Assembly: GCF_002214385.1 (NCBI RefSeq)
Contig: NZ_CP014855.1
Location: forward strand, 806,001-870,000
DNA: 64,000 nt
Direction: 5' to 3'
Source of the DNA: Thermococcus gorgonarius
Lineage (GTDB): Archaea; Methanobacteriota_B; Thermococci; Thermococcales; Thermococcaceae
The position numbers and the translations under genes are program-made. Below are positions 35,985 to 44,627 of the stretch, in pieces. The notes under the pieces were generated by a model. The model was given only the letters and a program-made list of their open reading frames with translations, was not told the origin of the DNA and made no database searches. The number at the start of each line of letters is the position of its first letter. Position 1 is the stretch's first letter.

Positions 35985-36114
35985 CTTGCCCACCGATGTA
36001 ACTTTATCAACATTCAATGAACTTGTATATGTTAAAAAGTATTCTGAACACCGAGGGTGATAACAGGCTGAATGGAAAGGGATTTATAATATTGTGCGGA
36101 TGTATCATTGTGTG

Positions 36115-38258
36115 ATGAGGACAATGTCATGGAGCGCGGATCTTATCATGAGACTTCCAAAAGACCTCCTTCTGGATTCCATTTCGGAGCTTCTGTGGAG
36201 AATGGGGTTTAAGAACTACGAGAAGGTCTCAAATGAAAGAAAGTGGGGCGCTGACATAGTGGCCATCAGGGAAGATCCAATAGCGGGAACAGAAAAGCTC
36301 ATCCTTTTAGTGCATGATAGGGGACTCGCAAGCTCAAAAGATGCCAACTTTTTCGCTCAGAACGTCGACAGACACAAGGCCCACAAGGGAGTCCTTGTTT
36401 CGCCCGCAGGGTTCACAAAGGACGCCAAGCTCTTGATGTCGCGGGACTACCTTGGCAGGATCATACCCTGGGATGGGGAAAAGCTCGCATCCCTGCTGAA
36501 CAACTACGGTGTTAAAGTCCCGGAAGGGGCCGAAAAGTTTTTTACTCCGGAGAAGGAAGAGAAGGAGGTAAAACTGGAGGAATTCGAACTTGATGCACCC
36601 CTCCTCTACGATTTCTCACATGCAGAACTCATGAAGAGAGTTTCAGAGCATCTGACCAGGAATTACCCAGTTTCACCAAATGAGATAGAACTCGTTTCCC
36701 TTTCACTGGAACTTTCTACCGCTTACATTGTCTCTTGGGAACTCACGGGGACAGAAAAGGAGGGTGGAAAAGCCATAATCTTCTCAAAGGATGATGTCGT
36801 GCTGAACGCCGAGGAAGACAGAGAACTTTCCACACCGCTGAAAAAAGCTCTTCTCGATGAGAGAGCAGTAATACGGGCCACCGAGAGACGGATACAGAAT
36901 CCGGTAAGTCCCGGCGAAGTTGCTCTGATCCTGAAAAGCCTCGTGGCTGAAAAGAAGGGGGTCTCAGAAAATCATGTGTCAATAATAGACAGAAGAAAGG
37001 TTTATCTGCCAGTAATGGCTCTTATGGAGCTTAAGATGGGAGAAAACAGGGGAGAGGCCAGGGTGAACCTCAGAACCGGTGAAATAGACGTTTCACTAGA
37101 ACCGCTCCCCGAGGGATACTTTTTGAAAAAGGCAAGGAGTATCGTTGAGAAAGAAACCGGAGAAAAGCCTGAGGAAATCAACGTCAAGAGCGGCGAGAGA
37201 AAACTTAAAGTCCTGGGCAAGACGAGACGCTTTTCATTTGAGGTTGTTTTCAATCCCTATACCGGGAAGCTGGTTGGACTTGAAACTTTAATGAGCGACG
37301 AGGCCTTGGAAGAGCTTCTAAAGTCCCTCTATCCATCTGGGGAGGTACTGTCCCTCGAAAAACAAGAAAAGAAGCCGTTGCAGATCTGCTCGTAGACGAA
37401 GGAATAGTGGTCGTTGGGGTGGATCTGAAGAACGGGGAGGCAAGGGAAGTCAGGAGCCTTCCATCACCCACTGAAGCTTTTGAAAAGGCCAAGAAGTTTG
37501 TTAAGGGCAACTTTCCGGTTTCACGGCTTGAACCCAAGGAATACAGGGTTATCGAGCACAAATACCTGGAGGTAACCCTTGCGGGAGAATCAGGGGTTGC
37601 GAAGGTTAAAATAGACGGTGCGACCGGGGATGTTCTTGACTACTACGTTGAGGTATCCCCCGAGAGAGCCGGATGGCTCGTTCTTGAGAGGTATCCCGGC
37701 TACACTCTAAAGAACATCTCCGAGGAAAACGACAACTACGTTGTGGAAATAGAGGACCACTCGAAGGAAATCAAGGTACTTCTCAGCAAGGACGGCAAGA
37801 TGCTGAAGGAAAAGGACAGGGTTCTGAAGAGAGAACTGGCCGAGAAAATAGCGGAGGAAGAAGCCAAAAAAATCGATCCAGAGGCCAAGGTTGAATCCCT
37901 CGTGCTCTCCGATAATTGGACAGCAGAGTTCACCGGAGTGACGAAGGTTGGAACGCTGACCCTCGATAGGGGCACTGGAGGGCTTTTAAAGGTAGAGGCC
38001 AGGTTCACGGAGAGAGCCCTCGAGGATCTGTACCACAGGCACGTCCAGGAGAAGTACGGCGAGGATAACCTGAACACGGAGAGAATAACGCACTACAAGG
38101 ACAAGGGTTACATGAACATAAAAGTATCTGGCAGTGAGTACATCTACTATGCGAGACTGGACACAAAAACCGGAGAAATCTTAGAAGAGGATAGAGTGCC
38201 CAAGAAAGGATTGACGGCCAAGATAAGGCAGATGCAGCTTGAGGGGAAGTACAAATGA
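36115..38258 (+). pseudogene. Mrr-like N-terminal domain with PepSY-like repeats, split by a frameshift
   Basis: Two frames encode one protein of about 714 residues. The first frame (36115-37395) begins with a ~110-residue restriction-endonuclease (Mrr)-like domain (LLWRMGFKNYEKV, WGADIVAI, AHKGVLVSPAGFTKDAKLLM) whose QxK/ExK position instead reads LLVHDRG, so catalysis is doubtful. The rest, and the second frame (37407-38258), carry repeated ~70-residue units of PepSY-like type, e.g. EARVNLRTGEIDVSLEPL, AKVKIDGATGDVLDYYV and YYARLDTKTGEILEEDR. The second frame is open upstream to 37359 (KTRKEAVADLLVDEGIVVVG), so one missing A in the A run 37358-37362 explains the break. Real mutation, sequencing error or -1 slippage are all possible. 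The protein has no signal peptide and looks cytoplasmic. A gatttataatat promoter element precedes ATG 36115. Confidence 0.65.
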
Positions 38259-41090: not shown

Positions 41091-42539
41091 ATGTGTGAAT
41101 ACACCTATGAAAACGGAAAAAAGTGCAGGCTGAAACCCCTTGAAGGTTCTAAGTTCTGCCCGCTCCACATCCCCCGGGAGGAAGGCGAGACCCTCTACGG
41201 CGAAAAGATAAGGGAGATAAAAGAAAAGGCATTCGAGAAGAGGTTGAAGGTTGGGCAGTCCTATTTTGAGGGGGTTGACCTCTACGATGTAAAGATAACA
41301 GGCTACACCAGTGAGAAGGTGCTGGTTTTCAAGAACTCCAAGATAACAAACCTAATCCTGGATGGCTCGTCTGTTAAAGGGCTTATCCTAATAAACTCAA
41401 AGCTGGAGAGGGTTGTCACGTTTGAATCGTCGGTCGAGACCATATTTATCAAAGGATCGTCTATCTTTGGCCTGAACATTTTGAGGACCGAGTTCTCGGG
41501 ACATATTACGGTCAGAGACTCGGAAGTAAGGTACCTGATGATAAACTCGACCCAGTACAGAAAAAGCGATAAGGAAAGCGAGGAGAAAGCCTACAGCGAG
41601 ACAGAGAAAGTGATAGGAAACATTGAACTATCCGGATTAACTGGTGTTAGAAAAATAGGGATAAACACCAAATATCCGCTCTTAAGGGATATCCTTAAGG
41701 AACACGGTATAGACGTTTCCGAGAGGAAGGAAAAATCTGTCCGTGCCGAGACCCTTATTATAAAGGACATCAGCTTCGATATCTCCCCGAGGTATAAGAG
41801 GAGAGTTAGATTGACTGTGGCGGATTTCTACGGTCGCCTCCATCTTGAGAACCTCGAAGTTTTCGGACACATTGAAATAAGGAGGAGCAGACTTTTCTCA
41901 CCGGAGTTTATCCACGTCCGAATCGAGAGCAACCTGATAATCAAAAAGAGCTTTATTGTAACGGACAGCACGTGGAGCATCACCGTACTGCCAAACCTGC
42001 CCATAGAACTGGAGGTCAAGGGCTTTATAATAGTCGACGAATGCCAGTTCAATAATCCTCAAGCTGAAAAACTCTTCTACCGCCTGGCAAGAACCAGCTG
42101 GGAGAAAGGTGGGGACAGGGAAATCGCTGATAGATACTACTACCTCGAGATGCTGGCGGAAAGAAAGACGAAGCTCAAATCAAGAAGGAAAGGCTTGAAA
42201 AAGCTCCTTAACTGGATGGAAGTAGGTTTTGAGTGGCTCTTTGCGGATTTAACCTGTAAGTACGGAACCGATTGGAAGAGGCCAATACTCCTATGGCTCG
42301 CGGCCGTCAACGTCTTCTTCCCCATCCTCTTCCTCCTCACGGCCAGCGTTGAGGGCATTTCGGGTCAGCTGGGCTTTCTCGACTACGAGTACTTCAGCAT
42401 CGTAACCGCCACCACACTCGGCTACGGTGACTACCACCCAATAGGTGTGGGGAGGGCTATAGCATCGGTCGAGGCGCTCTTCGGAATGTTCATGTGGGCG
42501 GTCTTCCTGACGGTGTTTGCGAGGAAGTACATGAGGTGA
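41091..42539 (+). CDS. Potassium channel-like protein with N-terminal zinc motif and beta-helix-like domain
   Basis: A 482-residue protein of unusual build. Residues 1-26 have C2, C12, C23 and H26, a C-x9-C-x10-C-x2-H zinc-binding pattern. Residues ~55-340 are short repeated strands (VLVFKNSKITNLILDGSSVK, LKGFIIVDE-type) resembling a right-handed beta helix of the pentapeptide or bactofilin kind, cytoplasmic. A charged helix (~350-395) leads to the channel: TM1 PILLWLAAVNVFFPILFLLT, pore and selectivity filter TATTLGYGDYHP, and TM2 ASVEALFGMFMWAVFLTVFA. TLGYGD is the potassium filter of two-TM channels. I infer a tetrameric potassium channel gated by the N-terminal part. In a probable operon with GNAT and NAD-kinase-like genes. 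Confidence 0.8.
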   Translation: MCEYTYENGKKCRLKPLEGSKFCPLHIPREEGETLYGEKIREIKEKAFEKRLKVGQSYFEGVDLYDVKITGYTSEKVLVFKNSKITNLILDGSSVKGLILINSKLERVVTFESSVETIFIKGSSIFGLNILRTEFSGHITVRDSEVRYLMINSTQYRKSDKESEEKAYSETEKVIGNIELSGLTGVRKIGINTKYPLLRDILKEHGIDVSERKEKSVRAETLIIKDISFDISPRYKRRVRLTVADFYGRLHLENLEVFGHIEIRRSRLFSPEFIHVRIESNLIIKKSFIVTDSTWSITVLPNLPIELEVKGFIIVDECQFNNPQAEKLFYRLARTSWEKGGDREIADRYYYLEMLAERKTKLKSRRKGLKKLLNWMEVGFEWLFADLTCKYGTDWKRPILLWLAAVNVFFPILFLLTASVEGISGQLGFLDYEYFSIVTATTLGYGDYHPIGVGRAIASVEALFGMFMWAVFLTVFARKYMR

Positions 42540-42543
42540 AACC

Positions 42544-43680
42544 ATGCGCGTTGGACTCATAGTCAACCCGATAGCCGGAATGGGGGGAAAAGTTGCCCTC
42601 AAAGGCACCGATGGAGTTGTGGAAGAGGCCATAAAACGTGGAGCCAGGCCCATAGCCGCTGACCTCGTGAGGCTGTTTCTTGGTGAATTGACACACTACG
42701 AAGAGGCTCGGAAAATTGAGTTTCTAACCGGTCCGGGGCCGCTCGGGGAGGATGTTCTGAGGGAGTTCGATTTTCCTTACGAGGTTATCCGGCACAGGGA
42801 GATAGGGTATCGTCTTGTTGAAGGCATCCGAATCCCAGACACCACTTCAGAGGACACAAAGGAACTCGCGAAGAGCATGCTGGGAAAAGTCGAGTTGCTC
42901 CTCTTCGCTGGCGGCGACGGAACTGCCAGGGACGTCGTCGAAGCCGTCGATGAGAAAGTCCCCATCCTGGGAATACCCACCGGCGTCAAGATGTACTCAG
43001 GAGTCTTTGCCGCATCGCCGGAGGACGCGGCGAGGGTTTTAGTGGAGTTCATCCTAGGAAGGGCAGGGCTTGAGGAGAGGGAAGTCAGGGACATAGACGA
43101 AGAAGCCTACAGGCACGACGAGGTTAAGGCCAGAACCTACGGGAAGGCCATCGTTCCGGTGGTTGAGACCCTCGTTCAGGGGAGCAAGGAGGGGGTTCCC
43201 CTCGATGAGGAGGGCGAGCTTGAAGCCATAGCTGAGGCCCTTGCGGAGGAGATACTCGAGAACGACGGGATTTACTTCCTCGGATCTGGCTCAACGATAA
43301 AGAGGATAAAGGACGCGCTTGGAATAGACGGAACGCTGCTCGGCGTCGATGTCGTTGAGGTTAAGGATGGAAGGGCCAGACTCCTCGTAAAGGACGCGAC
43401 CGAGAAAGACCTCCTCAGGTTTGTTGATCGGAACCCGAAAATCGTTGTCACGGTCATCGGCGGCCTCAACTTCCTCTTTGGCAGGGGAAACCAGCAGTTC
43501 TCCGCGGAAGTTCTGAGGCACATCCCCAAGGAGAACATAATAGTCGTCGCCACACCCTCAAAAGTCCGGAATGGCTTTATCAGGGTCTACACGGGCGACA
43601 GAGAAGTGGACGAAAAGCTTAGGGGATACATAAAGGTCAGGGTGAGCCCCTGGATGGAGAGGATAGTGAAGGTCATCTGA
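42544..43680 (+). CDS. ATP-NAD kinase family protein (COG3199 type)
   Basis: A 378-residue protein of the NAD/diacylglycerol kinase superfamily: N-terminal VGLIVNPIAGMGGKVALKGTDG and the catalytic FAGGDGTARDVVEAV with GGDGT, then IPTGVKMYSG. It is longer than canonical NAD kinases (about 280) and belongs to a distinct group whose substrate is not settled. Starts five bases after the channel gene's stop, so it is probably cotranscribed. Confidence 0.88.
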   Translation: MRVGLIVNPIAGMGGKVALKGTDGVVEEAIKRGARPIAADLVRLFLGELTHYEEARKIEFLTGPGPLGEDVLREFDFPYEVIRHREIGYRLVEGIRIPDTTSEDTKELAKSMLGKVELLLFAGGDGTARDVVEAVDEKVPILGIPTGVKMYSGVFAASPEDAARVLVEFILGRAGLEEREVRDIDEEAYRHDEVKARTYGKAIVPVVETLVQGSKEGVPLDEEGELEAIAEALAEEILENDGIYFLGSGSTIKRIKDALGIDGTLLGVDVVEVKDGRARLLVKDATEKDLLRFVDRNPKIVVTVIGGLNFLFGRGNQQFSAEVLRHIPKENIIVVATPSKVRNGFIRVYTGDREVDEKLRGYIKVRVSPWMERIVKVI

Positions 43681-43727
43681 GCGGAACCCGTTTATACCTC
43701 CTCCTTATATTTTTAGTGGTGATATCC

Positions 43728-44627
43728 GTGAGATACAGCAACATAGCCGTCAGACTTTTTGAAAAGGAAGGCGAGGACGTCTTCTACGACCCGGCCTATC
43801 ACGGCAGGACGCTGAAGGTCTTCGGTATGGACGAGTGGCCAGACAAGGCATTGGAACATTTGGCCGGAAAATACATGGAGAAAGACTACTCCAGGATCAT
43901 CTTCGACACGAAGGGAAGTTTCAGTGAAGAAGGCTTTGATACAGTTCTCAGAATTCAGGACACGAAGCCCAGCGGTCTGGACCCCATAAAGCTCGCAGGT
44001 GAAGGCCACTTCGACTTCTACACAGCCGCCACGATAGTCCAGACGATTTACGGCCTTGACAGGACGCTAACGGAGATGCTCTACTCGGATATACTGGCAG
44101 GAAAAGTCGGGAGTGTTCCAGAGGCGTTAAAGGCAGGGCAAAAATACTCGGAGGTAATCGCGGAGAGCTACACTGCCTTAGACCAGCTCCTCTACTCGGG
44201 TGAAGTTCCGGAACTCGGCCAGAACATCCTTGTGGACTTTGGAGATGCCCACAGCATAACCCTCGTTGGAAACGCTTTCCTTATCCTGTCGGCGGCCGTC
44301 GAGAAGAGGAGAAAGGTGATGGTAGGCCTCAATGATGCGGCCGTTTTGACCTATACCACCGCGGGAGGCGCGGGACTTCCCCTCCTGACAAAGCCGGCCC
44401 TCAAAAGGGTAACCGTGGTCGCCAGCGAGTACGCCCTGGATTCCCTGCTGAACATGTCCGGCCCGATTCTGCTCCTCTATCACGATCCAGATGTGCAGAG
44501 CTTAGTCTACGAAGCAAGTGGAGTTCCGCCAGGCCCGATGAGAAAGCACGTCCACAAGGGCCAGGGAGCCTTCATCTACCGCACGCCTGAGACCATAGAC
44601 GTGGAATGGGGCGAAATGCCCCTCTAA
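43728..44627 (+). CDS. Conserved hypothetical protein
   Basis: A 299-residue soluble protein I do not recognise. Two apparent lobes: residues ~1-85 (FYDPAYHGRTLKVFGMDEWPDKALEHL) and a longer region with the pattern ILVDFGDAHSITLVGNAFLILSAAVEKRRKVMVGLNDAAVLTYTTAGGAGLPLL, which has the hydrophobic-acidic alternation of a Rossmann or P-loop-derived fold but no intact Walker A. GTG 43728 is preferred since ggtgatatcc precedes it; GTG 43716 is also in frame. Its promoter-like ccttatattttt lies about 25 bases upstream. Stop overlaps that of the convergent cysteine desulfurase. Confidence 0.6.
   Translation: MRYSNIAVRLFEKEGEDVFYDPAYHGRTLKVFGMDEWPDKALEHLAGKYMEKDYSRIIFDTKGSFSEEGFDTVLRIQDTKPSGLDPIKLAGEGHFDFYTAATIVQTIYGLDRTLTEMLYSDILAGKVGSVPEALKAGQKYSEVIAESYTALDQLLYSGEVPELGQNILVDFGDAHSITLVGNAFLILSAAVEKRRKVMVGLNDAAVLTYTTAGGAGLPLLTKPALKRVTVVASEYALDSLLNMSGPILLLYHDPDVQSLVYEASGVPPGPMRKHVHKGQGAFIYRTPETIDVEWGEMPL

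Follow-up and report, generated by a model that had tools for sequence, protein, structure and literature searches.

A conserved, uncharacterised variant of the solenoid-bearing two-transmembrane K+ channels is encoded in the genome of Thermococcus gorgonarius, within a stretch of 64,000 nt that was analysed as a whole (the window; NZ_CP014855.1, assembly GCF_002214385.1, positions 806,001 to 870,000 of the forward strand). Most likely, the protein is a housekeeping K+ channel of the Thermococcaceae that is under the control of a cytosolic ligand. Its gene starts with an ATG and is one open frame, and its parts, together with the downstream neighbour, are as follows.

41091 to 42539, forward strand: the whole channel gene, 482 aa (open reading frame, Pfam and ortholog alignment)
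41094 to 41168, forward strand: CCCH finger-like motif C2, C12, C23, H26, residues 2–26 (invariance and a sub-threshold zf-C3Hc3H match)
41175 to 41249, forward strand: two short predicted helices, residues 29–53 (AlphaFold2)
41262 to 41555, forward strand: first predicted beta-helix stretch, residues 58–155, strands with pLDDT of about 90–97 and a 5-/10-residue periodicity
41619 to 42038, forward strand: second predicted beta-helix stretch, residues 177–316, with a short helix at 196–204 and a weak loop near 297–303 (AlphaFold2)
42057 to 42263, forward strand: predicted helical linker (WE..GD...AD.YYY.EM ... FEWLFADLTCKYGTDWKRP), residues 323–391 (AlphaFold2, homology to the linker of sister channels and, weakly, to that of HalA)
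42276 to 42341, forward strand: outer transmembrane helix, residues 396–417 (Pfam, AlphaFold2)
42375 to 42440, forward strand: pore helix and selectivity filter TTLGYGD, residues 429–450 (Pfam, ortholog invariance)
42447 to 42530, forward strand: inner transmembrane helix and end of the protein, residues 453–480 (Pfam, AlphaFold2)
42544 to 43680, forward strand: downstream NAD-kinase-like gene (PF01513, PF20143; Pfam, conserved position)

The pore was recognised by the Pfam model Ion_trans_2 (PF07885) at residues 402–480 (E 3e-13, 49.9 bits versus a cut-off of 22.5), and nothing else in the channel protein scored above cut-off in the Pfam scan. The filter itself occupies residues 441–447. Sequence searches of the PDB matched only the pore, which resembles that of KirBac and other two-transmembrane K+ channels; in contrast to these, the large domain of the window channel lies on the N-terminal side and a C-terminal cytosolic domain is absent, the inner helix being the C-terminal end of the protein. 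In RCK channels, the sensor comes after the inner helix. Neither an RCK (TrkA-type) nor a CNBD domain was matched by Pfam in the channel protein, and the AlphaFold2 monomer is a beta-helix with neither fold, so that the original prediction of a two-transmembrane K+ channel with TLGYGD and without RCK domains was borne out. With no chain left beyond the inner helix, a gating signal must arrive from the N-terminal side. The window channel is the only Ion_trans_2 gene of the T. gorgonarius genome, which also carries one TrkH gene. A promoter and terminator scan gave nothing above chance, the scan models being bacterial and the host an archaeon.

The structure of the protein was predicted with AlphaFold2, at full length as a single subunit from an alignment of 28 sequences, and for the N-terminal domain alone from 30 sequences. 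The full-length model has a mean pLDDT of 80, with values of about 90–97 for the bulk of residues 1–155, low confidence in a loop at 161–173 and a pore that is poorly resolved in the monomer, and the isolated domain reached a pLDDT of 88 and a pTM of 0.85. The short strand repeats that had been proposed over some 280 residues were found again as regular strands predicted from residue 58 to 316, their extent now being about 260 residues, with the weak loop at 161–173 within it. Strand starts are spaced 10 residues apart from 84 to 124, and the hydrophobicity of residues 58–155, averaged over the orthologs, showed an autocorrelation of 0.34 at lag 5 and 0.48 at lag 10, which none of 2000 shuffles reached. 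Residues 215–320 gave no significant periodicity at these two lags, though strands are predicted there.

In a Foldseek search with the full model, the top PDB match was the channel HalA with oligodeoxyadenylate (9nyi, prob 1.00, E 2.6e-3, TM 0.22/0.29), followed by pentapeptide solenoids amid other beta-helices. The isolated N-terminal domain found a designed pentapeptide solenoid first (5dns), with HetL (3du1), Qnr, AlbG (2xt4) and MfpA lower down, again amid other beta-helices. The class of the predicted fold, a beta-helix, is well supported by the models. A degenerate pentapeptide solenoid as its subtype is suggested by the periodicity of 5 and 10 residues and by the Foldseek matches, and is uncertain because none of the E-values was below 0.001 and the TM-scores were low throughout, for the full model as for the domain. 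In contrast to HetL, AlbG and 5dns, which share with it the 5-residue periodicity of residues 58–155 and are not fused to a channel, the window protein had no match above cut-off to the pentapeptide models of Pfam (PF00805, PF13576, PF13599).

At the very N-terminus, the predicted motif was found with its exact spacing, C2-x9-C12-x10-C23-x2-H26. Its conservation was followed in 27 orthologs of the same genus (59–78% identity), which make a set of 28 together with the window protein. All 28 keep the four Cys/His and T441 to D447 of the filter unchanged, and the four Cys/His are also invariant in 30 sequences that include distant Thermococcales orthologs with as little as 40% identity in the N-terminal domain; judged from these alignments, the conservation of motif and filter is not due to chance. 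The zinc-finger model PF13891 (zf-C3Hc3H, cut-off 27) scored 15.7 bits with the whole protein and 21.4 bits with its first 45 residues, and binding of zinc at the CCCH site is plausible.

Had the N-terminal part been a separate gene in relatives, the unusual build would have been in doubt, yet each of the 28 sequences encodes N-terminus and pore together in a single uninterrupted frame; in G098, a genome outside this set, the frame is broken near residue 411. The search for other members found strong orthologs (E < 1e-90) in 80 of the 94 Thermococcaceae genomes searched, and this presence in most genomes of the family speaks for a general role. Some near-complete genomes of the family are without the gene, and therefore the channel is not essential. 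With tblastn, plasmids gave five records only, of low identity and chiefly in pore and linker, and phages a single match confined to the pore; PHROGs was likewise matched at the level of the pore only.

The search also led to sister channels in other Thermococcus genomes, which carry Pentapeptide_3 or classic Pentapeptide repeats (Pfam, above cut-off) and all end in Ion_trans_2. Their order is that of the window channel, i.e., Cys/His start, pentapeptide repeats, linker and pore, with the start present in most of them as MCKMAHFGNCDPETADQEYCIFH or MKC...C...CPFH. Comparison with two sister sets by hhalign (E 3.6e-33 over residues 264–482 and 3.7e-17 over 325–482) points firmly to homology of linker and pore with both. 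The profile comparison of the solenoid with those of the pentapeptide sisters was unconvincing (prob 28.8). Haloarchaeal plasmid proteins, annotated as K+ channels or pentapeptide-repeat proteins, share this plan and carry, close to the N-terminus, Cys residues and a CxxH, which in one homolog lie partly upstream of the annotated start. The build is not unique: these archaeal pentapeptide-repeat K+ channels (e.g., L040, L042 and L045, and P0001 and P0003 from haloarchaea) share the domain order and a homologous linker and pore, the difference being that their own repeats are recognised by Pfam whereas those of the window family are too degenerate. In the papers searched, no account of a K+ channel with pentapeptide repeats and no characterised member turned up. 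Further homologs include two very long sisters with many Pentapeptide_3 repeats (L046:2048-4714, 889 aa; L039:2938-5043, 702 aa), an Archaeoglobaceae protein with a Cys/His start, pentapeptide-like repeats and a channel that is split by a frame break (L072:1-2208), and a protein of 417 aa from Aeromonas caviae (L085:2410-3663), which shares linker and pore, is matched by none of the pentapeptide models of Pfam and comes from a record of 4.9 Mb that is labelled a plasmid.

The original prediction knew of no characterised channel of this build, which is not strictly so, HalA (9nyi) being a solved relative of similar plan. The NCBIfam model of HalA, NF051894, aligned its positions 190–337 with residues 326–481 of the window protein at 14.2 bits (cut-off 250; E 0.019), and it matched this linker and pore region in 26 of the 28 orthologs at E <= 0.1, the best at 2.7e-4. 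HalA 70–338 could be aligned with a pentapeptide channel from a more distant archaeal relative (E 7e-11), and HalA 45–125 with a canonical pentapeptide protein; HalA, too, therefore apparently has a pentapeptide-like N-terminal part. HalA is the effector channel of the anti-phage system Hailong, reportedly described by Tan et al. in 2025 in Nature 643:794. According to two papers, it is an ion channel blocked by the poly-dA adducts of HalB, and the block is removed by phage exonuclease activity (PMC13275509, PMC12657230). The two channels appear to be similar in plan, with a solenoid-like N-terminal part, a helical linker and a C-terminal two-transmembrane pore, and on the weak sequence matches the window channel is distantly related to HalA in linker and pore. 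In contrast to HalA, the window channel has a longer and more degenerate solenoid, a CCCH start not seen for HalA in this analysis, a distribution like that of an archaeal housekeeping gene and no HalB partner: no HalB gene was found near the channel by Pfam, and in the whole genome the HalB model matched only stretches of 19–26 residues, far from the channel. An identification of the window channel as HalA itself was rejected on the score and on the absence of HalB nearby.

Taken jointly, these observations lead us to favour, on balance, a tetrameric, K+-selective two-transmembrane channel that would be gated from its cytosolic N-terminal domain by a ligand or a partner. Going by the anatomy, the subunits would assemble into a tetramer, each with three cytosolic parts: a finger-like CCCH cap, a beta-helix of a degenerate pentapeptide type and the helical linker, which leads into the outer helix. 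By analogy with HalA, a ligand or partner that is bound to the beta-helix or the finger would shift the linker (residues 323–391) and so open or close the pore via the outer helix. Alternatively, the pore might be a leak that is not regulated by the N-terminal domain at all, with beta-helix and finger merely anchoring the channel to a partner or a structure. The solenoid is indeed among the least conserved parts of the protein, with about 25–31% invariant columns versus 67% in the pore, and sister channels differ greatly in solenoid length but little in linker and pore; however, the invariant finger and the many invariant positions in linker and N-terminal domain suggest a specific, coupled role, and a mere leak seems rather unlikely.

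The finger could also be the switch itself, the loss of its metal or the oxidation of its thiols altering the gate and the beta-helix serving as a spacer. The invariance of the four Cys/His, and the recurrence of a Cys/His start in the sister and haloarchaeal channels, would be expected of such a zinc or redox sensor. Against it, fingers of this kind are often structural, this one is distant from the pore in sequence and its zinc-finger scores in Pfam stay below threshold, and we regard a sensor of this type as improbable.

The NAD-kinase-like gene, which follows after a gap of 4 bp in the window, stands directly behind the channel in 28/28 loci of the genus and in 19/21 other Thermococcales loci (several of these being duplicate assemblies). 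It is also present in genomes without the channel, and because the kinase persists there, a tight functional tie between the two is weakened. In one such genome (G003:C1:732767-732826, reverse strand), a remnant of 20 residues of the channel C-terminus, 90% identical, lies just upstream of the kinase gene, which makes a loss of the channel from this genome probable. Upstream of the channel, the GNAT gene is common to only some of the relatives. An ORF of 303 aa without Pfam match (43716-44627) is conserved behind the kinase gene in most relatives, and another ORF of the window (36094-37395) encodes an Mrr_cat restriction-endonuclease domain (E 7e-11) and about 300 residues without Pfam match. 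A bolder proposal, that CCCH start and degenerate beta-helix are a distinct sensor module, ancestral in the Thermococcaceae, which would gate the K+ channel by binding a metabolite, conceivably one connected with the neighbouring NAD-kinase-like enzyme, is quite doubtful; if true, it would provide a K+ channel controlled by the binding of a small molecule to a beta-solenoid, outside phage defence.

An antiviral effector, held shut like HalA by a cytosolic signal and opening on virus infection to stop the cell, would agree with HalA as the top structural match, the weak match of its model to linker and pore and an Mrr-like nuclease gene about 4 kb away, but is very unlikely with a score far below the HalA cut-off, no HalB nearby, no match of the channel in PADLOC, and a housekeeping-like pattern of broad conservation across a single family with constant neighbours.

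In the material searched, no solved channel other than HalA, a recently described defence protein, shows this overall plan. The group to which the window channel belongs is large, being nearly universal in one archaeal family and having relatives in haloarchaea, and its members, thermostable proteins encoded by single genes, make a direct testing of solenoid gating possible. The breadth of the group suggests that gating by an N-terminal solenoid may be older and wider than phage defence.
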